A stretch of DNA of 64,000 bases, taken from NCBI GenBank assembly GCA_021234155.1, contig JAJEKV010000052.1, positions 9,565,284 to 9,629,283 on the forward strand, read 5' to 3'. Below the pieces are notes generated by a model. That model was given only the letters and a program-made list of their open reading frames with translations, did no database searches and was not told where the DNA came from. Shown here piece by piece: positions 1,495-36,118 of this stretch. The stretch's first letter is position 1, and every line of letters begins with the position of its first letter. The position numbers were made by a program, and so were the translations under genes. The stretch is from Isoetes taiwanensis (Eukaryota > Streptophyta > Lycopodiopsida > Isoetales > Isoetaceae).

Positions 1495-1865
1495 ACCTGG
1501 AGTCCACTAAACCACTTAACCACTAAACTAGGCTTAGTCCACTAAACCACTAAACTAGGCTGTCCAGGTTAACCACTGGAGATGTCAAGTGGTTAACCTG
1601 GACAAGTTCAAGTTGTCTAGGTTAACCACCTGGACAACCATGTCAAGTGGTTAACCTAGACAAGTATAGTGGTTAACCTAGACAAATGATCCACTTAGGT
1701 GGTTAACCTGGACTCGTGTAGTGGTTAGCCTAGACAAGTATAGTGGTTAACCTAGACAAGTATAGTGGTAAACCTAGACAAGTTTGTCTAGTGGTTAACC
1801 TGGACAAGTTTGTCTAGTGGTTAACTTGGACAACCCAGTCTAGTGGTTAACCTGGACAAGCATAG
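1495..1865 (+). repeat. Minisatellite, left array, first block
   Basis: Diverged tandem copies built on AGTGGTTAACCTGGACAAG with some palindromic GGTTAACC cores. Unit length is roughly 24-28 bp. This is the same family as the longer block at 2610-4390 and, reverse-complemented, the array at 7642-9350. It ends just upstream of a TATA box. Confidence 0.9.
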
Positions 1866-1919
1866 AAGGGAATATTTAAACCAACGGTTCTTTCTAACGG
1901 TTCTTTCTAGCCTTCAAGC

Positions 1920-1928
1920 TATATATAC
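1920..1928 (+). promoter_or_regulatory. Putative TATA box downstream of the minisatellite
   Basis: TATATATAC lies about 55 bp after the last clear minisatellite unit and about 100 bp before the first ATG at 2024. Two copies of ACGGTTCTTTCTA lie just upstream (about 1883-1908). The spacing fits a plant core promoter driving the short broken gene that follows; no transcript evidence is available. Confidence 0.45.
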
Positions 1929-2023
1929 CCTTGCCTTAGTTGTTCTTGGTAGAAAGTTAGTTGGTTTCAGTTGAGTTCAGTAGTAGTCGAGTTTCTTTGC
2001 TTACTGTTCAAGCCAAGTGACAG

Positions 2024-2515
2024 ATGGTGAGGACCCGACAATAGCTTCGTGAGAGCAGTGCCATCAATGCCCACACTCTTGAGGATATTCTCGTCCACTT
2101 GAATGAAATTCAGGAGGATGTGGGGCTAGATCTCGCCCAACCTAACAACATCAAAACGTTCAAAAGTAAGCATGTTCTTTCTTGTCTTCCTTCATATTTA
2201 TGTTCTACTTTCATATTAATCTTTTCATGATCCCCTCATGGTTCATGCAGAGGCAGTGGAGAATGGGGAATTCCTAGACCCCCTAGACCTCACACCGACC
2301 TTAAAACCTAGGGCATTTGCAACCAGAAGGCTTTGAGGGCATTTATGCGGGAAGGCAACACTCTAAAAGCTGAATTGAAGAGGCGGCGAAAGTGTATTAT
2401 CCTAGGGGCAAACCCTATCGCTTTGAATGATGTGGGATTTGTGCTAGCTGGGGCGTTATGGCAACGGATGTTGATTCAGGCAACACTCCAAAAAGTGGCG
2501 TGTCCCGGATGATGA
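2024..2515 (+). pseudogene. Broken two-exon gene between two minisatellite blocks
   Basis: Unrecognised gene. An ATG at 2024 opens MVRTRQ, followed by an in-frame TAG and then a coding-like stretch (SSAINAHTLEDILVHLNE). A GT donor after 2165 and an AG acceptor before 2251 would remove an 85-bp intron. Exon 2 continues with coding-like sequence rich in basic residues (AELKRRRKCIILGANPIAL) but changes frame. It lies between the two blocks of the left minisatellite and behind a TATA box, so it was probably an accessory gene of the same mobile element. MVRTR-type starts are common in plant retroelement gag proteins, but nothing else here supports gag. No function is proposed. Confidence 0.4.
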
Positions 2516-2609
2516 TGACTCGATACATGTATTTCTTACCATCATAGGGTTTGTGAAGATGCTTTTGTAGAGAAGTTTCATAAAAAGTCTCATGTTTACC
2601 GGTTTATAA

Positions 2610-4390
2610 TGAGGTTAACCTAGACATGTGGTAAACCTCGACATGTAAAGTCCTAGACATGTAAGTCTAGTGGTTAACCCGGACATGTAACTCTAAGTGA
2701 TTAACCTAGACATATAAGTCTAGTGGTCTTGCAAGTCTAGTGGTAAACATGATGTAACTCTAGTGGTAAACCTAGACATGCAACTCTAGTGGTTAACCTG
2801 GTTAAGTCTAGTGGTTAACCCGACATGTAAGTCTAGTGGTAAACCCTAGACATGCAACTCTAGTGGTTAACCCGACATCCATGTATAGTGGTAAACCGAC
2901 ATGTAAGTCAAGTGGTAAACCTAGACATGAATGGTTAACCCGACATGTAACCTGGTGGTAAATGTAAGTCTAGTAGTTAACACCCGACATGTAACTCTAG
3001 TGGTAAACCTAGACATGTTCCTCTAGTGGTTAACCTAGACATGTAAGTGTAGTCCTCCATGATATTTAGTGGCATGTATAGTAAACCTAGACATCAACTC
3101 TAGTGGATTACATGTAAGACTATCCTAGTGGTCCCGGACATGGCATGCAACTCTAGTGGTTAACCTAGACATGCAAGTCTAGTGGTTAACACGGACATGT
3201 GTAAACCTAGACATTAAGTCTAGTGGTTAAAAGTTTCATGTTTAACCTAGACATGCAAGGGTAAAAAACAGTCTCATGTGGTAAACCTAGACATGTAAGT
3301 TTAGTGGTTATATGCAAGTCTAGTGGTAAAACCTAGTGGTGGTAAACCTAGACATGTAAGTCTAGTGGTAAACCTAGACATGCAACTCTAGTGGTTAACC
3401 TGGTACATGTCTAGTGGTAACTCTCTAGTGGTTAACCTAGACATGTAACTCTAGTGGTTAACCCGGACATGCAAGTCTAGTGGTTAACTGACATGTAAGT
3501 CTAGTGGTAAACCTAGACATGACATGCAACTCTAGTGGTTAACCTAGACATGTAAGTCTAGTGGTAAACCTAGACATGCAACTCTAGTGGTAAACCTAGA
3601 CATGTAAGTCTAGTGGTACAAACCTAGACATGTAAGTCTAGTCAAGTCTAGTGGTAAAACCTAGACATGTAAGTCTAGTGGTAAACCTAGACATGCAACT
3701 CTAGTAGTTAACCTGGACATCCATGTATAGTGGTAAACCTGGACATGTAAGTCTAGTGGTAAACCTAGACATGTAAGTCTAGTGGTTAACCCGGGACATG
3801 TAACTCTAGTTAACCCTAGACATGCAAAGTCTAGTGGTTAACACATGTAAGTCTAGTGGTTAACCTCGACATGCAAGTCTAGTGGTTAACCTACATGTAA
3901 GTCTAGTGGTAAACACATGTAAGTCTAGTGGTTAACTGTAACTCTAGTGGTAAACCTAGACATGCAACTCTAGTGGTTAACCTAGACATGTAAGTCTAGT
4001 GGTTAACCTGGACATGTAAGTCTAGTGGTTAACCTGGACATGCAAGTCTAGTGGTAAACCTAGACATGTGGTAAGTCATGTGGTAAACCTAGACATGTAA
4101 GTCTAGTGGTTAACCTAGACATGCAAGTCTAGTGGTTAACCTGGACATGTAACTCTAGTGGTAAACCTGGACGTGCAACTCTAGTGGTTAACCTAGACAT
4201 GTAAGTCTAGTGGTTAACCTGGACATCCATGTATAGTGGTTAAACTAGACATGCAACTCTAGTGGTAAACCTAGACATGTAAGTCTAGTGGTAAACCTAG
4301 ACATGACATCCATGTAAGTTTAGACATGCAACTCTAGTGGTTAACCCGACATGTATAGTGGTTAACTAGACATGGTAAAACCTAGACAAG
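2610..4390 (+). repeat. Minisatellite, left array, main block
   Basis: About 60-70 copies of a ~26-bp unit of the form TCTAGTGGTTAACCTAGAC plus ATGTAAG. Common variants are GTGGTAAACC for GTGGTTAACC, CTGGAC for CTAGAC, and ATGCAACTC for ATGTAAGTC. Truncated units and out-of-phase joins are frequent, so the array looks reshuffled and shows no stable higher-order period. It fades into AT-rich sequence after 4390. Confidence 0.95.
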
Positions 4391-5683: not shown

Positions 5684-7186
5684 TCATCGACTTACATTAG
5701 ATATGCCCCAACGCATTCCTTTGTTCACCCATGATTTAAACATCTTTTTTCGGGATCGCCCTGTGCACATCCTCAAAGCACTCACCACCTGGCCTGCTCT
5801 ATCATAAATTAACCTCTCTTGACGAACCCCAAACCTATATTGGGCTCTTGACGTGAATGGGCCATTGGCGGTTGTATGAAAGCACAATTTTCTTCCCGGT
5901 TTAGGCCTCCCCAATCCCCAAACCATGGTAAAGAGGTCCTCTATCTGCCAGAAGGTGTGGAAAGCAAGCTTATAGTGCGGAGCTAGGCTCAAATTGTTCT
6001 CATGGGGCGTGGACCCTCTCATTGGTTTTGATGGTGTAATCATATCGAAAAGCTCTACTACTGCACATGGGGCAGAGGGAAGGAAACGGGGAATGCCGAT
6101 TCTCATGGCTAGAAGGACCTGGACTTACTCAGTTTGCCCGAGGGCTCTGGCCGATGGTGGCTCCTCGGGGCTTCCTCCGGCCCTGCCAGATTTGAGGATT
6201 TCTTCATTTAGATCTGCCATGACACGGTTAACTTGAGAAGTCCACTCGGATTCTCTTGTCTGCATGTCATCAGCAGCCAAGGGATTCCACTCTTGCTCCT
6301 CAACACCCTCCAAGCCATAAACAATGGCTATAGTCTTCGTATATCTGGCCATTCTAGCCTCCTTGTCTTTTTCCCACTCAGCATTCCTCCTGGCAACATA
6401 CTCTTCAAGGATATTTCTTGGCTGCCTCCTTATCTCCTATCAACCCCTTCATTTTGCTAACCCGATCCCAACCAATCTTGAGTGCATGGTCTTGGCACCT
6501 TCTCAAATATCTTCTCTGATTAACCCGGTACCTGTACTCAGGGTCCATTCTATAGGCAAGATGATATGCTGAAAGGTCACGGTTGGGCCTTCTCTTTTGC
6601 TTTGTGGTTGCTTGCCTGCGTCTTCCCACCGGTGCTCCCTCCACAACAACTGCAAGGTTATGTACATTGCTCATGTGTGCCCATGACCTCAACCTTTTTC
6701 GGTGTCCCATACACACCCGGAACTAAACAACAGCGCCTCTTCTTCTTGAGGGAGTAATAGTATGCCCGGCTTCATGTGATGTTCCTCTATCTCGGTCGCC
6801 ATCACTAAAGCTGCTTCAACCTCAGGAGGTAAACGCACCCCTGTGCCTTCTTCCCCTTCTTCTACCTGTGTCTTCTTGGCAGATCCCTTCTTTGCCCCCT
6901 TTTGAAAAGCAATCGGATCCTTCCCCTTCTCGACTGCTACAACTTTCCTCTCTTCATAGTTGGGCTGGTACTCATTATCAGAATCGGAAAGGCTCTCTGA
7001 ATCTGATGACATTGCGCTTGAGCATAAGATTCCACAAAAATAAAGCTTAGCTCTGTGGCAGCCCTGCCCTTCAATGCAAGCGGCCCAAGCTGGCGCCAGA
7101 TGAACTCCGTTTGAGCTTCGGTTTGCCTCTCGGGCTTGATCAGGTGGGTGCGCGAGCTGAACAGAACTAAGACTGAGCGCATTCAC
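5684..7186 (-). CDS. Probable upstream exons of the Ulp1-protease gene, unrecognised domains
   Basis: Four consecutive minus-strand open stretches (7186-6689, 6716-6405, 6352-6125, 6106-5684) precede the protease exons in the same direction. The first contains an acidic, low-complexity start (SSDSESLSDSDNEYQP) and basic KKGSAKKT runs. The second is strongly basic (GRRRQATTKQKRRPNRD). The fourth has WQIEDLFTMVWGLGRPKPGR. None matches a family I recognise. Acidic and basic unstructured N-termini are usual for transposon-carried Ulp proteins, so I read this as the non-catalytic part of the same gene. The frame changes between pieces may be introns or decay; exact junctions were not resolved. The 7186 start is only the open-frame limit. 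Confidence 0.45.
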
Positions 7187-7641
7187 CCGGGAAACAAAAC
7201 TCGGCCATAGCCAAAACAGTCGAGCTCATGCCTTCAGACAGGTTTACACATGGCAAACAGCCATTTGCTCTTTTCAACCATTAGATTTCATTTCAAATTT
7301 AAAAATATGCTATGTTCAACCATTAGATTTCATTCAAATATAAAAATTGTCTCGGGCTCACCATTTGCAGAGTAGGACAATTCCAAGGCAGATAGTCGAG
7401 GGTTTCTTATAACCCGGTGCGGTGTGATTGATATGGGACTCTTCAATTATGATTGATATGGGACTCTTCAACTATGATTGATGTAGCATTTAATAATATA
7501 ACAGGCAATGCAGGGGAATAATATAACATGATTGATGTTCCGTGCAATCCACTTTCATTATCTAAGTTGCATGGCACTGTTCCACTGTAATTGGTGCAAC
7601 ATTTTCTACCATGCTTCCTAATTATTTGCCATTACACTTAG
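7187..7641. other. Spacer between Ulp1 gene 5' side and right minisatellite
   Basis: Probable upstream region of the minus-strand gene. It includes short direct repeats such as ATTGATATGGGACTCTTCAA (twice, 7428-7472) and CAACCATTAGATTTCATT (twice, 7277-7333). No gene seen. Confidence 0.5.
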
Positions 7642-9350
7642 TTGTCCAGGCTAACCATTACACCCACATACCCACTAGACTTAGTTGTCCAGGCTAACCA
7701 TTGCACCTACATGTCCATGTTTACCATCTCAAATCTCAAGTGCATGTCCAGGTTTACCACTAGACTTAGTTGTCTAGGTTTACCATTACACTTGCACACT
7801 GGACATGGTTGTCCAGGTTTACCATTGGACTTGCATGTGCAGCCTAACCATTGCAACTACATGTCCAAGTTTACCATCTCAAGTGCATGTCCAGGTTTAC
7901 CACTACACTAAGTTGTCTAGGTTTACCACTAGACATGGTTGTCTAGGTTAACCATTGCACCTAGGTTTACCACTACACTAAGTTGTCTAGGTTTACCACT
8001 AGACATGGTTGTCTAGGTTAACCATTGCACCTACATGTCCAGGTTTACCATCTCAAGTGCATGTCCGTTTTACCACTAGACTTAGTTGTCTAGGTTGACC
8101 ATTACACTTGCATGTCCGTTGTCAAATTGGTTGTCCAGGCTAACTATTACACTTGCATGTCCAAGTTTACCATTGGACTTGCATGTCCAGGCTAACCATT
8201 GCAACTACATGTCCAAGTTTACCATCTCAAGTGCATGTCCAGGTTTACCACTACACTAAGTTGTCTAGGTTTACCACTAGATATGGTTGTCTAGATTAAC
8301 CATTACACCTACATGTCCAGGTTTACCATCTCAAGTGCATGTCCAGGTTTACCACTAGACTTAGTTATCTAGGTTTACCATTACACTTGCATGTCCAGGT
8401 TTACCATGTCAAATTGGTTGTCCATGCTAACCATTACACTTGCATGTCCAAGTTTACCATTGGACTTGCATGTCCAAGCTAACCATTGCAACTACATGTC
8501 CAAGTTTACCATCTCAAGTGCATGTCCAGGTTTACCACTACACTAAGTTGTCTAGGTTTACCACTAGACATGGTTGTCTAGGTTAACCATTGCACCTACA
8601 TGTCCAGGTTTACTATCTCAAGTGCATGTCTAGGTTTACCACTAGACTTAGTTGTCTAGGTTTACCATTACACTTGCATGTCCAGGTTTACCATGTCAAA
8701 TTGGTTGTCCAAGCTAACCATTACACTTGCATATCCAAGTTTGCCATTGGACTTGCATGTCCAGGCTAACCATTGCAACTACATGTCCAAGTTTACCATC
8801 TCAAGTGCATGTCCGGTTTACCACTACACTAAGTTGTCTGGGTTTGCCACTGTCGCATGGTTGTCTAGGTTAACCATTGCACCTACATGTCCAAGTTTAC
8901 CATCTCAAGTGCATGTCCAGGTTTACCACTAGACTTAGTTGTCTAGGTTTACCATTACACTTGCATGTCCAGGTTTACCATGTCAAATTGGTTGTCCAGG
9001 CTAACCATTACACTTGCATGTCCAAGTTTACCATTGGACTTGCATGTCCAAGTTTACCATTGCACCTAGTTGTCTAGGTTTACCATTAGACATTGTTGTC
9101 TAGGTTAACCAGCACACCTACATGTCCAGGTTTACCAAATATGCTCTGGAAGTCCAAGTTTACCGCTAGACTTAGTTGTCCAGGCTAACCATTGCACATA
9201 CATGTCCAAGTTTACCATCTCAAGTGCATGTCCAGGTTTACCACTACACTTAGTTGTCTAGGTTTACCATTACACTTGCATGTCCAGGTTTACCACTGGA
9301 CATGGTTGTCCAGGCTAACCATTACACTTGCATATGTCACTAGGTTAACT
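7642..9350 (-). repeat. Minisatellite, right array, inverted relative to the left array
   Basis: Tandem ~26-bp units of the form TGTCTAGGTTTACCACTAGA plus CTTAGT. This is the reverse complement of the left-array unit (CTAGTGGTAAACCTAGACA). Variants include GTCCAGGCTAACCATTGCAC and GTCCAAGTTTACCATCTCAA. From about 8121 the variants recur in a fixed order: GTCAAATTGG starts at 8121, 8408, 8695 and 8982, an exact 287-bp higher-order period of about eleven units. Open frames across the array are products of the repeat, not genes. Confidence 0.95.
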
Positions 9351-18085: not shown

Positions 18086-18547
18086 AACTTTGGTTGGGGA
18101 AAAAAGGTTTTAATAAGAAATAGGGGTTTCTTTTGAGGCATGGATCATTGTGAAAACAAAAAAAAAATAAGATTGTGTATTGAACGGGAGCAAATAATTG
18201 AAACGAGAGCAAAAGGAATATTCCTTAAAGATCTCCTTATTTTTTACAAAAAAGGGGTTAAAATAAGGTTAAAAAAAAGGTGCATAAAATTGTATTTTGA
18301 CTCCCCCCTCCCCCCCTCTAATGACTAAATTTTTTTGTGCAACGGGAGAATTCCTTTTTAAAGTAACACTTTTCGTTGCAAATAGAATGTTCTTGAAGTA
18401 TATTTTTAGAGAGAACCACTAATTTAAGAGGATAAAATATTTAACAAAAAATTGAAGTAAAGTCTATAACTGAAATTGTAGTATTCTCAAAATTTAAAGA
18501 TAAAATCTTCATATTCACATGCAAAATTTACAGTATTTTTCTAAGAC

Positions 18548-21500
18548 TCAGTTATGTACAAAAGTGTGAGTAGTGATGAGAGAGGGATCCAATACGTCAT
18601 AATATTCATTTATACCATTCTCATCATCTTCACTTCTTTCACTGTCACTCGAGGAAGTGCCCGAGTTATCTTCCTCATCACTATCAACAGATGGTGAAGC
18701 ATTGCCACCACCACTTCCTTCTTCATCCTCTTCCTCGTAATTACAAGACTTTTTAAGTAAATTGATAGTCCTCTGGCGCAGACGATTGCCAAATTTCAAT
18801 TTGAAATCATAGCACAATATAGTCACATCACTTAAGTTCAGCTCATCCCTACAACCCACTTTCTTGGACTTCCTCCCTTTTCCTTGACTTCTCATTTCTA
18901 ACTCATACCTACCTTCAAAAGCATTTTCTGAACGTGTCGCAAGCTAGTGAATCTTGAGTTTTAGTTACTAAACCTTCCTCCTTGACTATGTCAAGAACTT
19001 TTGCTATCCAAAAAGGTCGACCTTTGTCATCCTCCTCAGTTGGAAGAGCAATCAGTATACCTTTGGCAATTTCTGTGATATTACCGCGTCTTGATCCGAG
19101 GTACATGACTCAGTCCTCATCTTCCTCTACTGCAGGTGCTATGGTAGCATTGCTTGGACATGTCTGGTTCTGGGGTAGATGGAAGGTGTTAGGCCATTGA
19201 AACGGGTCTTGCAACTGTCTTAGAGCTAGGTTTTGCAAAACAATTTTCTGTTCAAGAAAGAAATTTCTCCACCACATGTGATCTTCTTGTAAGAAGTACT
19301 TAAAGCCAGAGGAAATTCCATTTTCAATGGCTTTTAAAGATGTCAATGGGGTACTTTTCTTCTGCTTGGACTTCTTAGGATTTTTGAGAGGAAGTTGCTC
19401 AGCACGTTCTATGAAGCAAATGTCTGGAACAGATTTAAGGAAGTGCAATCCCTCTGGTAGACTCCAATCCTTAGTTGTGGTGTACTTCTTTTCCTGTAAG
19501 AAGTTTTGTCCATCCTTCAAGTAGAACTTGATGTGATGTTGAAAGGTAAGATCATTCAATTTGTTCACAGCTTGTTCTCGGAACGTTGAGGGAAAACAGA
19601 CTCTCTAAAGTCAGCAGTCTTTTTAAGAAGCTCGACCACTGGAATGGGAGTGTAAGAATCTTCAATGATTCGAACTAAAGTAGGAAGACAAAAAGTTTTC
19701 TTCCTTCTAAGACGCACGAAAAATTTGCTGAACATCTGGCCAATCTGATCATGAGTGTGCCCTACAAGTAAAAATTCGAGCTTTACTTTCCTGAAGATCC
19801 TTAGCTCCACTAGCATGGCACAATAAGCAAAGAGTGTTTGATTCTTGTTCTCCCTTGTAGTGTTGTCAAGTTGCAGATAGAGCGCTGGTAGTAGTTGCTT
19901 TTGCTCGCATAAGACCTTGTTAAGAATTATAATTAAGAGGTTCGAGTCACCATGCAAGTTTGGATACGTCAAATATACTTTGCACTTTAGACTTCCTTTG
20001 AAGACCATAGCTCCTACAAGGTGGACTTTAACAAAACATTCCTCTGACACATCTTTTGGAATATTTAGGAAATGGGGTAGAGTTGTCTAGAGTTGTCTTT
20101 TTTTGATCCATTCCGTCAATTACAACAGACATATATTGCAGTGGATGTTCGAGACTTTTTTCTGTGTTTGGCAAGCTTTCTTCTCTGTGCTGCTTGTTGT
20201 TTACGATGTCTAGCAAGGTTCTGTTGCTCAATATCTGTTGAAGAAATTGTGTCAAAACATTTTCTTTAAAATAAGTGAGAGATTGGAGAACTTGAGTTTA
20301 CTTCTTTCGACCTCTGTCTTTGCAATTTCTCGTTGAATTTTTAATTCTGCACACCTTGAGCAAATAGACATTCTATGTCTCTTAGGAGTTTTCACAAGAC
20401 CGAATTCACTTTTCCAGAGTCTAGTGAAGTGTGAGTAAGAGATATGCTGAAACTGAATGCAAGTCTCTTTGTATTCTTTGAAGACATTTTTTTTTTGTAA
20501 TGTTGTCTGTCAAATGATACTTGTTGCTAGTAGGCAAATTCTCACATGTTTGTCTAAAATATTTCTCCATCCATGTCACAGCAGCCAAGGCATGCATTGT
20601 TACAACTCTTCTTGGTCCACAGTGATCATCAATTGCTGGGTTTTTATCCAGTCTTTTATGTATTTGAGACATTCTTGTGGACCCTAAACAGTGGACAACC
20701 ATAAAGCATTTTTGGCAGACTTGTTCACGGTTAATGTAGTGCAAGAAGGTGTTACGGTCTGGTCTTACATGATAAGCTAAGTAGGCATTCTGGTCTGCCA
20801 GTATCATTGAACTGTAGTTATCTCTAACTGCTCGTAATTTAGCCATGTTAAATCTGTTGATGCAACCCATTGAGCAGCATTTAGTTCTTAGAAGTCTCCT
20901 CATTTTGTGTTCATCCATAAGGTTTTTTCTTCTTACAGAGGAGCATGCTCTCAAACTAAAATCCACCTTGAATTTCTTCGAAGATTGGCTGGAGAACATG
21001 TAATCTCGTTGCTCCTCGTTGGTGTCTTCATCTTCTGTTGAAAGTTCAACTCTAGGGGTGACCTTCTCTACCCTGAGTGGTGTGTTTATAGAGGAAAACA
21101 GACCACGTGAAGCTATTCCCGGATAAGGCGGTGGCACAGTGTTAAAAGATGGTGACGGTCCATAAGAGGTTGTGGCAGCAGCTATTCTTGTACCATCTTG
21201 AAAAGGAGTTCTTGCAAACATCTCCTTTACCGCAGACTGGAATCCTGCAAATCCATGTGTGACAACTGTTGTGTGAACATGAGTACATGCTGCAACATTG
21301 TCCTCATTTGTAGTGAAGTCTTGGTGAGAGAGATTGTAGAGAATCTCACAGTCTTCTGTACATTCTGCATTCCTTGTGTTTTTGCACGAAGGAGGAGAAA
21401 CTACAAATGGTGGGGGTAGCTTGTTCTTTGTGTTTTTGCACGAAGGAGGAGAAACTACAAATGGTGGGGGTAGCTTGTTCTTAACCACTTGTTGTGGCCT

Positions 21501-21810: not shown

Positions 21811-22180
21811 GTAGTGTGGAGACATGAGAAACTTTCTCGACCGCAGAATGTTTCTTATTCCCGAATACAAGACCACACTGTTCAAGTGGAAGTCCTAGTA
21901 ACAATTAAGCGAAAGATAAACTAAAAGTTATTCCGAAATACAGTGGAGCAGGAAAATAAGATAACGTATTCCATTTCACATAGAAAAAGAGCAGGACATA
22001 AGGGGTACCTTTAAAAGGAAATTTTGGAGCTCTCACTTCTGTATTCTAGTCTCTGAGTTCTAGATGCCAGCGCCAATGCCCTTGATTTTAAATACAGAGA
22101 CTGTATTCCCGTGTGCATAGAGAAATCATGGACGGGTGAGTGCAAAAAGTACATTCTATGTTCATTTTCCCTTCTGTTGC

Positions 22181-22360
22181 CTTTTTCGGAATACACTTTG
22201 GCTTCTGTGAAGAACCGAAAGTGTATTCCAGAATACACTTTCGCTTTAGACGAAACTGAAAGTGTATTCCAAAATACTTTCGTTTTCCTCTGAAGCCAAA
22301 GTGTATTCCGGAATACGCATTCGCTTCAGACGAAACTAAAAGTGTATCAGTTTCGTCTGA
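22181..22360. repeat. Palindrome array 1 in the divergent promoter region
   Basis: Copies of a CpG-centred palindrome, ideal form GTGTATTCCGGAATACAC. Dyad centres lie at about 22187, 22229, 22270 and 22309, i.e. 42, 41 and 39 bp apart. A further half site (AGTGTATC, 22341) lies inside a perfect 12-bp inverted repeat TCAGACGAAACT/AGTTTCGTCTGA (22326-22360). The copy at 22216-22243 is a 28-bp palindrome with one mismatched pair. The spacers also pair (TTTCG...CGAAA). The array lies between the divergent transposase and ParB/methylase-like genes. Further imperfect copies lie at 21848 and 22515. Confidence 0.85.
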
Positions 22361-22566
22361 AGGCAAGGTGTAATCCTGTGTAGAATTTACCTACTTTTTC
22401 CTCTAAGGGGATTATTTTCTTGCACTTTTTAGACTACAAGAAGCCCTTTAAATCGTTGAAATTTGTGTTAAAAAGTCTTATATTTGTCATGTTTGAGTAT
22501 AGAATTCTCTTATTTTATTCCCGAATAAGATTTTGTCTTCGTTTTATTTTCTTTTCTTTTTTTTCA

Positions 22567-25199
22567 GATTTTAACAACAACGTTTTTAGAGGCAAGACGG
22601 AAACAAGAAAGCTCCACGAAAAACATTGAAGGTGACGAAGAAACCTCACCAGCAGGCAAGGGTCCAGGAAACAAAGGAGTCTGCTGTGTATGAAAACTTC
22701 CAGACGCAGTGGTACATAACAAGGAGAATTGGAGTAAAGTACAACACACTAACTTTCCTCCACGTCTGTGGAAGTCCGGGTGGCAAAAGGTTTGATGACA
22801 AAGAGTTTAAATGCATGGGTGTCATCAGAGACATTTCCGAAGTTGCCAGTCAGTCTGGACAACAGAGACGGCTATCCTTCGGAATGTCTCAGGGATTCAT
22901 AGTTGTGGACCAGGCCTATTTTAGACTTGGTAGAGTGAGCCCTCAAGCTTTGTATAAGTACATGACTCATTACATTAAGCTGAGGCTGGCTGAAATCATA
23001 AGAAGAGTACAATCTACTCAAAGTGAGGATTTTGCTTGCAGCAAATTCGAAGATGAAGTAGTGGAAGAGGAGAAGCAAGACGATGCCTCTAGTCAGAAAG
23101 AACAGGAGGAAAGTCCTAGTGGTTCAAAAGAGCATCAAAGGAAGAGCCGGCCATGAGGCACCATTGCAGCAAAAGAGCAAAAAAAATGCAAGGTGCAGGA
23201 AATTGTGGTGCAAGAGATTCCAGAAGAAATGCCAAAGAAGAAAAGAGGAGAAGAGAGGTCGCCATTAAAGAAAAGAAGGTGGACAAGACCTCAGAGAGAA
23301 TGGAAGAAATAAACTTCCACAAGTATGTGCAAGACGTCATGTATTTGCCAATAACTTCCATGAGGTTGCCACCAAAGAATGAAGCTGGTGAACGCCCTCT
23401 TCAAGTTCGAAAGATTTATGCTGGTCACTTAAGGAACCTGAAGGATAGGATCAAGGGCAACCCTAATGCCCACATTGCTCCAATTGTCATTCTCATGGAC
23501 AGAACCCAGTGCATGGACCCCAAGGAGTACGACAGAGAAAATGCAGACACTTACATGCATTACGTTCTAGGGGCAACCACGGTTTTAAGGCAAGGAGGCA
23601 GTTGTACAAGGAGAAAAATAACCCGAGATACCTCTCTGTCCGTTGTGCTATTTACTGTGGCCTGACGGACAAAGAAGCGAAGATCGTTGCCAATATGCAT
23701 AATGCTGACAATGAGTACAAACTTAAAATGAGTTTCGTCCACAAGATTAGGTTCATGCACAGGGAGTATGTGATATTTAAAGAAAAATGTGGAGAAGATC
23801 TGAAGAAACCAGCAAACTCCTTGGAGTTGAAGGAAGTGTATACTATCGAGTGTTGCCTCAAGTACGACGAGGCCAACAAATGATAGTCTCTGATAGCCCA
23901 CGACAACTGGTTTCAACTAGCTTTTAGAGATGGCAGAGTAAGTGCTTTTTGTATTCCGGAATAACCCTACAGTTTTCCCATTAACAATTTTTATCTGAAT
24001 ACAGATCTGGGATCTTCAGAACGAGATTTTCAACATGTTTGAGAGAGGGGAGTTGAAAAGCAAAGGAAAGGTCTCCAACAAGAAAAAAGGCTCCGACGTT
24101 CCAAAAAAGGAGATGACTATAACTGCCTGGAGAGAAATGCAGAGCTTCACAGATATGGACTTGCTCGAAACGCTACTGCAGAAAGTTGTGGACAAGGAAT
24201 TTACGCTGGAGGAAATGTCCAAGGAGCTGCACAAGTATGTTGAGCGTCACACCCTTTGTTTTTCTTTTGTTTTTTTGGAGTAGGAGTCACATTCATCAAA
24301 GTAAAAAAGTTTTTTGTGGCACATTTGCTTAACGGTGCACAAGTGTATTCCGGAATACGTCTCTCCCCTGATTCATGGCAAAAGTATATTCCAAAAAATA
24401 CTTTTCTTCACACTGAAGCTAAAGTGTATTCCGGAATACACTTTAGCTGCGCAAAAGGGCATAACATATTCTGGAATACACTAGTGCTTAGTTGTAAAAT
24501 AAAATTGTATTCCGGAATACACTTGTGCTTTGAAGTGTATGGTCTTTGTATTCCAGAATACACTTTAGTTGCCTCTGTGTACCGACTACGTTTTTCGTAG
24601 AAAGATTGATGTTGTGGTTATCTTTCAGCCAAAAGAAAGCCATAACATGTCAAACATGTTTGATCGAACAATTAAACATTGACAGTTGGGATAGATGTAA
24701 AGAGCTTTATCCTGTCGCAACTTCAGACGAACGCATCATCCAGTACGCGCCAAATTTTGAGGGCTGGATTGTCTTTTTGTTTCTCCTTTTTAGTTTTTCC
24801 GTTTCTGATTGTTACAGTGTGTTTTTTATTATAGAGCAAAAAGAAAAACAAAGACCTACCGGAGGGCTTCATGTACCTGGTAAGGACAGCACGGGAGGAG
24901 AGAATGTTAGCGGACAGGCGTGTTGTAGATGCTGAGCCCTTCGACTATGAACGCTTTACTATATTCGATCAAAACAATCTGTTTTGTATAGTTCACGGTG
25001 ACTGCACGAAGTTGTCCGGATCAATCAAGCCTCAAGATTTCACCTTGATAATAGCCAACCTACTATATGGCTTCAAGCTTAAGGACAGCCGCTACGACGA
25101 CCAACCTTTAAAGAACTCTGAGTTCAATGCTTTTGTCGACGGCACCTCTATGCTTCAAAATTTGCTCTACCAAATCGATTCCAAATCCTCTCAAATTTG
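22567..25199 (+). pseudogene. ParB-like plus DNA-methylase-like protein of the same transposon
   Basis: A multi-exon plus-strand gene, divergent from the transposase. After an acceptor near 22585, a basic N-terminus leads to an unrecognised domain (YENFQTQWYITRRIG... to IKLRLAEIIRRV, 22680-23010), then a Lys/Glu-rich linker. At 23400-23690 comes a ParB/sulfiredoxin-like domain: PLQVRKIYAGHLRNLKDRI, HIAPIVILMD, YVLG, then NHGFKARRQL and VRCAIYCGLTDKEAKIVAN. The expected GGNH motif is broken by one missing G at 23571-23575. After introns containing palindromes, 24690-25199 has SWDRCKELYP, then VHGDCTKL and DFTLIIANLLYGF, the layout of an amino-DNA methylase (GDC, then DPPY) with NLLY in place of DPPY. 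Sequence homology stops at 25199. ParB-methylase fusions are known from phages and plasmids. Here the gene is frameshifted and its catalytic motif is lost. The domain calls are by eye. Confidence 0.6.
24340..24565. repeat. Palindrome array 2, six sites about 41 bp apart, inside an intron
   Basis: Six copies of the GTATTCCGGAATAC palindrome, with centres at 24351, 24392, 24432, 24472, 24513 and 24554 (spacings 41, 40, 40, 41, 41). The copy at 24421-24443 is perfect over GTGTATTCCGGAATACAC and beyond. Others carry CCAG, CTGG or CCAA in the centre. The spacers between palindromes share little sequence. The array fills the intron between the exons ending near 24238 and starting near 24629. A single further copy (TGTATTCCGGAATAAC) lies at 23951 in the preceding intron. 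Confidence 0.9.
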
Positions 25200-34683: not shown

Positions 34684-36118
34684 CTAGCATCTACTACCAA
34701 CACTACAATGGAGGGCACCAGCAGAAGCAGTTATTTGTGGAACTGACGCTGCTGGTCTAATGGCAAATCTTTGAGCTATGGTATATCCTGGATCGGCACT
34801 TCCACTTCCTGACTGTACAAAGAAGGCACCATTGAGGAAAATGTCTCCTTGAGATTTCCATATCCAGTTACTATTTCTACCAGAAGCTTCTCTCTTTGTT
34901 ACCTGCAATATACACGTCACAGAAGTGGCTCGAATTATATGTTTATGGGGGCAAAGCAATAAAATAGAAGTAATACCTGCTTCTGTGCACCAGCTGCATA
35001 CCAATTAGCTTCACTCAATATTCTAGGTCCTGCACTTCCTCCTACTGCATACATTAGCCAGTTCTCATAGTGGTTATTCACCACATGGGCGTAGCCAAAT
35101 CTAACCCTGCATTCGAAGAAAAAGAACATGTTATTACTTTTCTTACAACATGAATGTCTTGTAATATCATACCTAGGCATCCTTTCTACACATCCTTGGG
35201 AGAAGTAATTGTACACGACAGTCACTTTCATAGCCTTATCAGCACTGAAGCTGTCGGAATGTCCCAGAAGCATGACCTGGATAGATTTCAATAAAAAGGT
35301 GGTCAAAAAGTACGGATTTTATAGAAAAGATGGCATCTACCACTGACCTTGTCATGGTTAGTAAAGTGGTTGTTAGAGATGGTAACCATATTAGAGGCAT
35401 GGATAACATCAATAAGTCCATCAGTAGCATGGGAGAGAAAGTTATGATCGATCCAGACATTGTTAGATCCAAAGACAGCAATGGCATCACCGTCAGCGCC
35501 GTTACGGTCGCCAGTGTGGGTGACGGAGGTCATGATGGTACCGTGGGAGCCAGGGACGCAGTTGATGATGGTAAGGCCATGGATGATAACGTGGCTAGAG
35601 AATTGGACGGTAAGGCAGGGGCCACCGTTACCGATAACCACGTTGGCACCACGGCCGTCGATGGTGGTGTAACTATTGACCATGAGCTCCTGTTTGAGGC
35701 GGATGGACATGCTGGACGCAAACACGATCCAAATGGGCCCGATTTGGACGGTACCGTAGCGCAGGGTTCCGGGCGCAGGATGAACCGGGTCATCGCCAGG
35801 ATCTGTCACCACGTATAGCCTCCCACCCTTGCCCCCCATTGCATTCTTTCCAAACCCTACTGCGCAATCCGCCAGATGCATCCGGTTCTTGCTCCAGTTT
35901 GGGTCGTATCTCCAACAGTTGTCTATCACATTTCCTCCATAGCTGTACCTGTATAACAGAATTGAATTGAATTGAATTGTCCATAGACATAAACATTTGT
36001 CGAACTAGACTGCCATGCATTATTACCTCGGTGCTGGTGCTGATGCTTCTACCGGTGCAAATATAAGCTGAGAACATATAATGAGAACCAGGAGCATTAC
36101 ACAGATTGGTCGCGACAT
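34684..36118 (-). CDS. Pectate lyase (polysaccharide lyase family 1), five exons, complete
   Basis: Secreted enzyme that cleaves de-esterified pectin (polygalacturonate) by calcium-dependent beta-elimination in the cell wall. Exons: 36118-36027, 35948-35348, 35276-35173, 35106-34977 and 34902-34684 (stop), 381 codons; all introns are GT/AG and every join keeps frame. Residues 1-26 form a signal peptide ([20 protein letters not shown]...EA). The conserved start [18 protein letters not shown] spans exons 1-2. Core motifs are [17 protein letters not shown] (about 184-199), ATDGLIDV (about 205-212), [11 protein letters not shown] across exons 2-3, and [14 protein letters not shown] (about 264-277) with the conserved Arg region. 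[14 protein letters not shown] lies near the end. An in-frame ATG at 36199 would add 27 residues and bury the signal peptide, so 36118 is preferred. A 3' piece is duplicated at 30.65-31.64 kb. No lesion seen. Confidence 0.93.
35954..35975. repeat. Short (GAATT)n repeat in pectate lyase intron 1
   Basis: About four GAATT units followed by GTCCATAGAC in the 78-bp first intron. It resembles the AATTC-type LINE tails nearby (TTTCAATTCAATT), but the intron is too short to hold an insertion body, so a simple microsatellite is more likely. Confidence 0.6.

Follow-up and report, generated by a model that had tools for sequence, protein, structure and literature searches.

Arrays of a CpG-centred palindrome accompany a gene for a bacterial-type DNA methyltransferase in a transposon family of Isoetes taiwanensis

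A 64,000-nucleotide stretch of the Isoetes taiwanensis genome (hereafter the window, meaning this whole stretch) contains a copy of a DNA transposon family in which short palindromes are arrayed in the promoter and introns of an accessory gene. This gene encodes a bacterial-type DNA methyltransferase fused to a weakly supported ParB-like region. Judged from sequence, the palindromes may serve as element-specific address sites, and the element's own ParB-methyltransferase is the binder that we favour, a reading to which we give about even credence. The arrangement resembles an address label through which the element could target itself and perhaps escape silencing.

Palindromic sites and their arrays

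The site in the window copy is an 18-bp palindrome with CpG at its centre, and mismatches were counted against this 18-mer. The first-pass annotation of the window had placed ten palindromes in two arrays, and all ten centres were recovered by motif search. The promoter array (22179–22318; like the other palindromic sites, without strand) holds four palindromes centred at 22187, 22229, 22270 and 22309, with 4, 1, 4 and 1 mismatches, respectively. The intron array (24343–24563) holds six, centred at 24351, 24392, 24432, 24472, 24513 and 24554, with 2, 5, 0, 4, 1 and 2 mismatches, respectively, and the site at 24432 is part of a 32-bp perfect palindrome. At up to 3 mismatches, the 18-mer has seven matches in the window (six of these ten sites and one at 23957) against 0.01 expected. 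Because matches with 5 mismatches arise about 1.6 times per window by chance, the site at 24392 was accepted for its position in the array. Beyond the arrays there are four single sites, all outside coding matches: two degenerate ones at 21861 and 21934 (21853–21943), in the part of the divergent promoter nearer the transposase gene; one at 22521 (22513–22530), about 80 bp ahead of the first accessory-gene exon match; and the one at 23957.

Across the genome (1.658 Gb in 1,110 contigs), the exact core GTATTCCGGAATAC was counted 3,720 times, against none for a reversed control and about 7 expected from base composition. Pairs of exact cores 40–44 bp apart number 966, against 174 over the 25 spacings from 15 to 39 bp; among 50 listed pairs in the latter range, 28 were at 19 bp and 8 at 31 bp, forming discrete recurring classes. 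The first 50 listed of the 3,720 core places were fetched as 19 stretches, some of them adjoining, and parts of the same element were present in all 19 (coding matches in 18 and the left terminus in L029). Three further copies were chosen by protein, not at random, L035 and L036 being picked for long open frames and L037 for divergence, and all three contained sites. The palindrome thus co-occurred with the element in 19 of 19 motif-chosen stretches and in three of three protein-chosen copies, which in this sample upholds the earlier claim that the palindromes are part of the transposon. A plain satellite unrelated to the element, which was considered as a candidate, did not appear in the sample and is unsupported. 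The 18-mer was absent from viral contigs and occurred once in prokaryote genomes, which by our estimate is about chance.

Within the copies, the sites avoid coding sequence. For these counts a site was allowed at most one mismatch in 12, and 'coding' denotes tblastn matches (E 1e-4) to the protein pieces used, with exons outside those pieces counted as other. In the window slice and the 19 stretches, 174 sites lie outside coding matches and none inside 46,775 bp of coding sequence; the protein-chosen copies add 38 sites, with none inside 8,753 coding bp. Altogether, none of 212 sites and none of 88 clusters falls within the 55,528 coding bp of the 215,203 bp in these 23 stretches (P ~4e-12 for zero coding clusters under random cluster placement), which bears out the proposal that the sites are confined to noncoding parts. 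The places that recur are the divergent promoter, the large intron and an intron inside the methyltransferase. In addition, of 15 copies whose first accessory exon is covered, 13 have a site 75–120 bp upstream of it; of 13 copies in which the exons on both sides of the small intron after the ParB-like exon are covered, 9 have a site in that intron. Copy L035 has 8 promoter and 7 intron-array sites and L036 has 7 and 6; the more diverged L037 has few.

The array conservation centres on the palindrome. A symmetrised profile of 118 array sites has a strong core, conserved positions from ±7 to ±12, weak conservation from ±13 to about ±19 and none from ±20 to ±23; core positions formed part of site selection, and outer positions did not. 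Spacers are therefore less alike than palindromes, as first noted, although in a graded manner, with conservation fading from the core to ±20–23, and spacers as conserved as the palindromes did not appear in the sample. Distances between neighbours (up to 140 bp) peak at 41–43 bp (79 of 124), with smaller classes at 19–20 bp (8), 31 bp (2) and 52–54 bp (7), and others are seen at 22, 25, 49, 56–60 and 64 bp. The idea that such spacing places the sites on one face of the helix is weak: the repeat unit is mostly 41–43 bp and nearly constant within an array, which tandem duplication by itself would produce, and sites repeated at 43 bp, as within the L035 intron array, drift round the helix. Spacer arms are more similar within an array (means of 3.3–4.0 of 7) than between loci (2.6 of 7), with no special complementarity within the same spacer or the same site; the arrays therefore expand and become uniform in the way of tandem repeats, while the palindrome itself is maintained. 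In 256 sites with at most two mismatches, the centre is CG in 114, CA in 67 and TG in 49, and the other core positions change in fewer than 6% of these sites. Change at the centre thus leads mostly to CA or TG, as expected for decay of methylated CpG, and most likely the sites carry 5-methylcytosine (5mC) set by the host.

The transposon and its methyltransferase gene

The host element is a DNA transposon family with terminal inverted repeats (TIRs) of about 25 bp and target-site duplications (TSDs) of 4 bp. The TIR is common to nine left and thirteen right ends, and the flanks of the four copies with both ends (L017, L021, L029 and L031) all have a 4-bp TSD (TTTA, ATAC, TATA and ATTA). These four copies, of 3.2–4.3 kb, have lost most of their coding sequence and are non-autonomous; in each, arrays lie 0.37–0.8 kb inside both termini. 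The coding copy L030 is about 8.3 kb long, its left end being estimated just beyond the fetched stretch. In the window, alignment of the nine left ends and a fuzzy search identified a decayed left TIR at 18166–18190 (plus strand). A fuzzy search of the whole window found no right terminus, and TIR-pair searches with the window flanks and the initial left-end probe found no partner, the right ends being known from other copies. The window copy is decayed and truncated: it retains the left end, both its transposase gene and its accessory gene are broken, and the right end is missing.

Two observations concern the element ends. About 48 bp inward from the left termini, GGAATATTCC presents half-sites in everted order in seven of the nine aligned left ends. 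Element ends abut the palindrome directly in L025 (positions 1632 and 5874, with TATTCTGGAATA twice) and in L027 (position 2589, with GTGTATT once), and these copies seem to have inserted in or beside their own sites, or to have duplicated through them.

The broken transposase gene lies on the minus strand at 18551–21242, as delimited by Pfam and by exon matches in other copies, with a DUF7869 domain at about 19565–20086 (PF25273, E 9.4e-45 on the open reading frame 19565–20050). The position of DUF7869 within the element suggests that it is the transposase. Upstream, the coding part may be longer, as DNA homology reaches about 21810; a 54-bp tandem duplication (98%) occupies 21370–21477 in the 5' part of the gene. 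The accessory gene diverges from the transposase gene, and the two share a promoter.

On the plus strand, six-frame reading and exon matches place the N-terminal exons and the ParB-like region (23399–23937) of the accessory gene, broken here, at 22605–23937. There follow a small GT-AG intron (23938–24004) with the palindrome centred at 23957, exon P4 (24005–24234, from exon matches), a large GT-AG intron (24235–24628, from splice-site reading) and exons P5 and P6 (24633–25199, from six-frame reading and exon matches), which encode the first methyltransferase part with a degenerate motif IV. The six-palindrome array, previously called intronic, indeed lies inside the large GT-AG interval, with conserved exons on either side. 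The small intron is a putative one because the reading frame runs open across it in L016 and L035, in which its site could be translated if the intron were retained. In the copy L018+L019, a Copia-like retrotransposon, called by eye from its reading frames, interrupts the ParB-like exon.

The methyltransferase was recognized from other copies. The accessory gene extends beyond the stop of the window copy in L016, L018+L019, L028, L032 and L033, and the motif I exon, missing in the window copy, is present in other copies. The added downstream exons match PF01555 (N6_N4_Mtase; E 5e-17 alone and 1.2e-18 with the preceding L028 exons), and the protein matches the solved CcrM structure 6pbd (E 4.4e-12) over both motifs IV and I. 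L028 carries DLPYGF (IV) and DAFSGSGTT (I), and motif IV stands ahead of motif I, the beta-class order. Among 11 scored copies, motif IV is legible in six (DLPYGF in L019, L027, L028, L033 and L036, and DIPYGF in L037) and shifted, cut or mutated in five (L026, L030, L032, L035 and the window copy); L016, outside this count through the identity filter, also has DLPYGF. Motif I is intact in L028, L030 and L035, GSGTT is also found in L037, and in the remaining seven of the 11 copies the motif is altered, shifted or uncovered. By these matches, the accessory gene is predicted to encode a beta-class, CcrM-like N6/N4 DNA methyltransferase fused to the ParB-like region, and adenine is probably the favoured target, in view of the D in the first position of motif IV and the CcrM match, the motif of most bacterial N4 enzymes being SPPY (PMC8885841). 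The earlier description of the product as a ParB-like protein was thus incomplete: a weak ParB-like region is present, but the downstream exons, lost in the window copy, encode a DNA methyltransferase.

Searching the genome with the protein gave 150 scored matches among 3,427 candidates, many of them with open frames of 450–587 amino acids. The median pairwise ratio of nonsynonymous to synonymous substitution rates (dN/dS) was 0.13 for the methyltransferase motif I exon (27 pairs), 0.19 for P1, 0.19 for P4, 0.24 for P6 and 0.26 for the ParB region, and 0.32 and 0.43 for the transposase N part and DUF7869; all scored pairs were below 1. Matches with less than 40% identity (including P6 of L016), pairs with fewer than 60 codons or with dS ≤0.05 and saturated pairs were excluded, leaving 27 of 55 possible pairs for P7, 23 of 55 for P6, 41 of 91 for ParB, 42 of 91 for P1, 33 of 78 for P4, 66 of 66 for the transposase N part and 45 of 55 for DUF7869. 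These values are rough: the pairs are not independent in descent, many synonymous distances approach saturation, and frameshifts in some copies raise dN. They indicate that the accessory gene is kept as a protein under purifying selection. Relatives comprise two proteins of the liverwort Riccia sorocarpa and five proteins named Gb_, which we take to be from Ginkgo biloba; land-plant relatives thus exist in a liverwort and probably in Ginkgo. Some of these relatives are partial models, and P0002, P0003 and P0004 show no clear motif IV. The probable Ginkgo methyltransferases P0001 and P0005 have DIPH or DISQ at the DPPY/DLPY position, and perhaps represent non-catalytic or domesticated forms. 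A protein search with the ParB region by itself found no homologue.

Candidate binders of the palindromes

We propose that the ParB-methyltransferase would bind the promoter and intron arrays as its own cis target, and would mark or remodel the regulatory noncoding DNA of the family to which it belongs. The mark would probably be adenine methylation, because motif IV reads D-L-P-Y and the closest solved relative is CcrM. Such marking could keep the transposase and accessory genes active against host 5mC silencing, or could autoregulate both. It would act in the manner of VANC in the Arabidopsis VANDAL elements, though through another protein and a palindromic site. The fullest version, in which a captured bacterial ParB-methylase reads parS-like palindromes arrayed in the element's own promoter and introns and writes N6-methyladenine (6mA) or N4-methylcytosine (4mC) there, so that host CpG silencing is overridden in this family only and in its non-autonomous copies as well, is one that we put forward tentatively and regard as rather doubtful.

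Several points weigh against this proposal. Motif IV is DLPY rather than the usual DPPY or SPPY; in the probable Ginkgo protein P0001 it is DIPH, and catalysis may have been lost in some lineages. The ParB resemblance is marginal: the match to the ParB-like partition protein phrog_1033 on L035 has E 0.0015, that to TIGR03764 ParB on the same copy has E 0.017 and 14.8 bits against a cut-off of 143.75, and DUF6551 was matched in three of seven members (best E 0.0055). The region had no match to Pfam ParBc, no score at a curated cut-off for the ParB family and no match among solved structures in the PDB, and the predicted structure of P0002 has a confidence score (pLDDT) of 30.7. In addition, the sample covers 50 of the 3,720 core places, the non-autonomous copies were found via the motif, so that their array content is biased, and the transposase could equally be the binder.

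The last point leads to the strongest rival, which we nevertheless consider unlikely: the palindromes would serve transposition and autoregulation as binding sites of the DUF7869 transposase or one of its splice forms, with a separate role for the methyltransferase. TnpA sites in maize Spm, which serve both transposition and autoregulation, provide a model. The promoter that serves both genes contains one array, and the four non-autonomous copies carry arrays close to both termini, a position that fits either the ParB-methyltransferase or the transposase as binder. Against it, though not decisively, coding copies have their arrays kilobases away from the left terminus and within accessory-gene introns as well, and the transposase exons are no more conserved than the accessory exons (median dN/dS 0.32–0.43 versus 0.13–0.26).

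Binding by a host transcription factor that drives the element, with TTCnnGAA acting, for example, as a partial heat-shock element, is less probable still. The core does contain TTC-CG-GAA, equivalent to two heat-shock-element boxes, and sites are present in the promoter; but conservation covers GTGTATTCCGGAATACAC and reaches about ±12, well past TTCnnGAA, a third phased box is absent, introns are also filled with sites, and the core lay inside the element in all 19 sampled stretches. We find it improbable that the arrays are an ordinary tandem repeat, carried in introns and promoter without binding function and conserved through recent duplication. This would account for the arm similarity within arrays and the near-constant unit length, but both older and younger copies conserve the core, as do unarrayed single sites, the mid-spacer is random, and sites recur at separate introns. 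The least probable explanation, that the inverted arms form hairpins or cruciforms in RNA or DNA, draws on the rough complementarity of neighbouring arms and is rejected because arms of the same spacer or the same site are no more complementary than within-array shuffles (p 0.99 and 0.98, respectively).

Neighbouring features and comparison with known systems

Elsewhere in the window, two large arrays of a 26-nucleotide repeat in opposite orientation (1501–4374 and 7629–9333, with 44 and 42 exact short-core matches) flank about 3 kb with short open reading frames (5684–7186, minus strand); the whole is probably another mobile element, one whose subterminal arrays are inverted. A pectate lyase fragment lies at 35303–35929 on the minus strand (PF00544, E 5.4e-10). 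Rfam and tRNA searches of the window gave no match.

The layout described here recalls several known systems. Bacterial ParB–parS pairs clustered palindromes with a ParB protein, and the likeness lies in clustered palindromes together with a ParB-like protein; the difference is that no parS sequence is found and that the curated ParB cut-offs are not reached. In Spm/En, the element protein TnpA has clustered subterminal motif arrays, also in the element's own promoter region, with methylation-linked regulation. The element shares with it an element protein, clustered sites in its own promoter region and, on our proposal, a link to methylation, but the site, the protein and the array position differ.

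The closest parallel is VANC of the Arabidopsis VANDAL elements, which are Mutator-like elements (MULEs), and in which VANC-target motifs lie in tandem repeats of fast turnover (PMC5735166; PMC10398659); the VANC21 and VANB21 introns contain such repeats, and so does the region upstream of VANA21 (PMC5735166). Both systems have a transposon-encoded accessory gene and a motif enriched in the noncoding DNA of the family (PMC5735166; PMC10398659), and a VANC-like layout is present here, the motif arrays lying within introns of the accessory gene and close to the promoter of the transposase gene. In contrast to VANDAL, the element has a different putative transposase (DUF7869) and a 4-bp TSD, and its site is an 18-bp CpG-centred palindrome rather than the directional YAGTATTAY described for VANC. 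The accessory protein is also unrelated, being set apart by its DNA methyltransferase matches and not by direct comparison. Moreover, VANC proteins are anti-silencing proteins, whereas the present element is known from its sequence alone.

As for the enzyme, a ParB–adenine methylase fusion is described in Bacillus cereus (for example, Bce_0392; PMC5512222). The domain pairing is the same, but the gene described here has introns and belongs to a plant DNA transposon, and its likeness to ParB is weak; the portion of that source available to us mentions no palindrome arrays for the bacterial fusions. N4CMT of bdelloid rotifers is a host 4mC enzyme with the motif SPPY that silences transposons, and a host 4mC enzyme also exists in Marchantia (PMC8885841); retrotransposons carrying DNA methyltransferases (DNMTs) bear C5 DNMTs, and DNA transposons with a DNMT in marine viruses are mentioned (PMC5890265). 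These cases likewise tie captured DNA methyltransferases to eukaryotic transposons, but here a DNA transposon carries an amino-type methyltransferase (DLPY) together with candidate site arrays of its own. Known kinds include VANC, in which a transposon encodes an anti-silencing protein and carries motif arrays, elements that bear C5 methyltransferases, and host 4mC enzymes. The present combination was absent from the literature searched, which was covered by titles and the openings of abstracts and with few subscription papers; the methyltransferases shown there were C5 enzymes in retrotransposons or host 4mC enzymes. If our proposal is correct, this family would represent a second, apparently independent, case in which a plant transposon counters silencing in a sequence-specific manner, using a DNA-modifying enzyme in place of VANC, and the 3,720 exact cores and at least 150 scored gene copies make a role of 6mA or 4mC in land plants testable at named sites.

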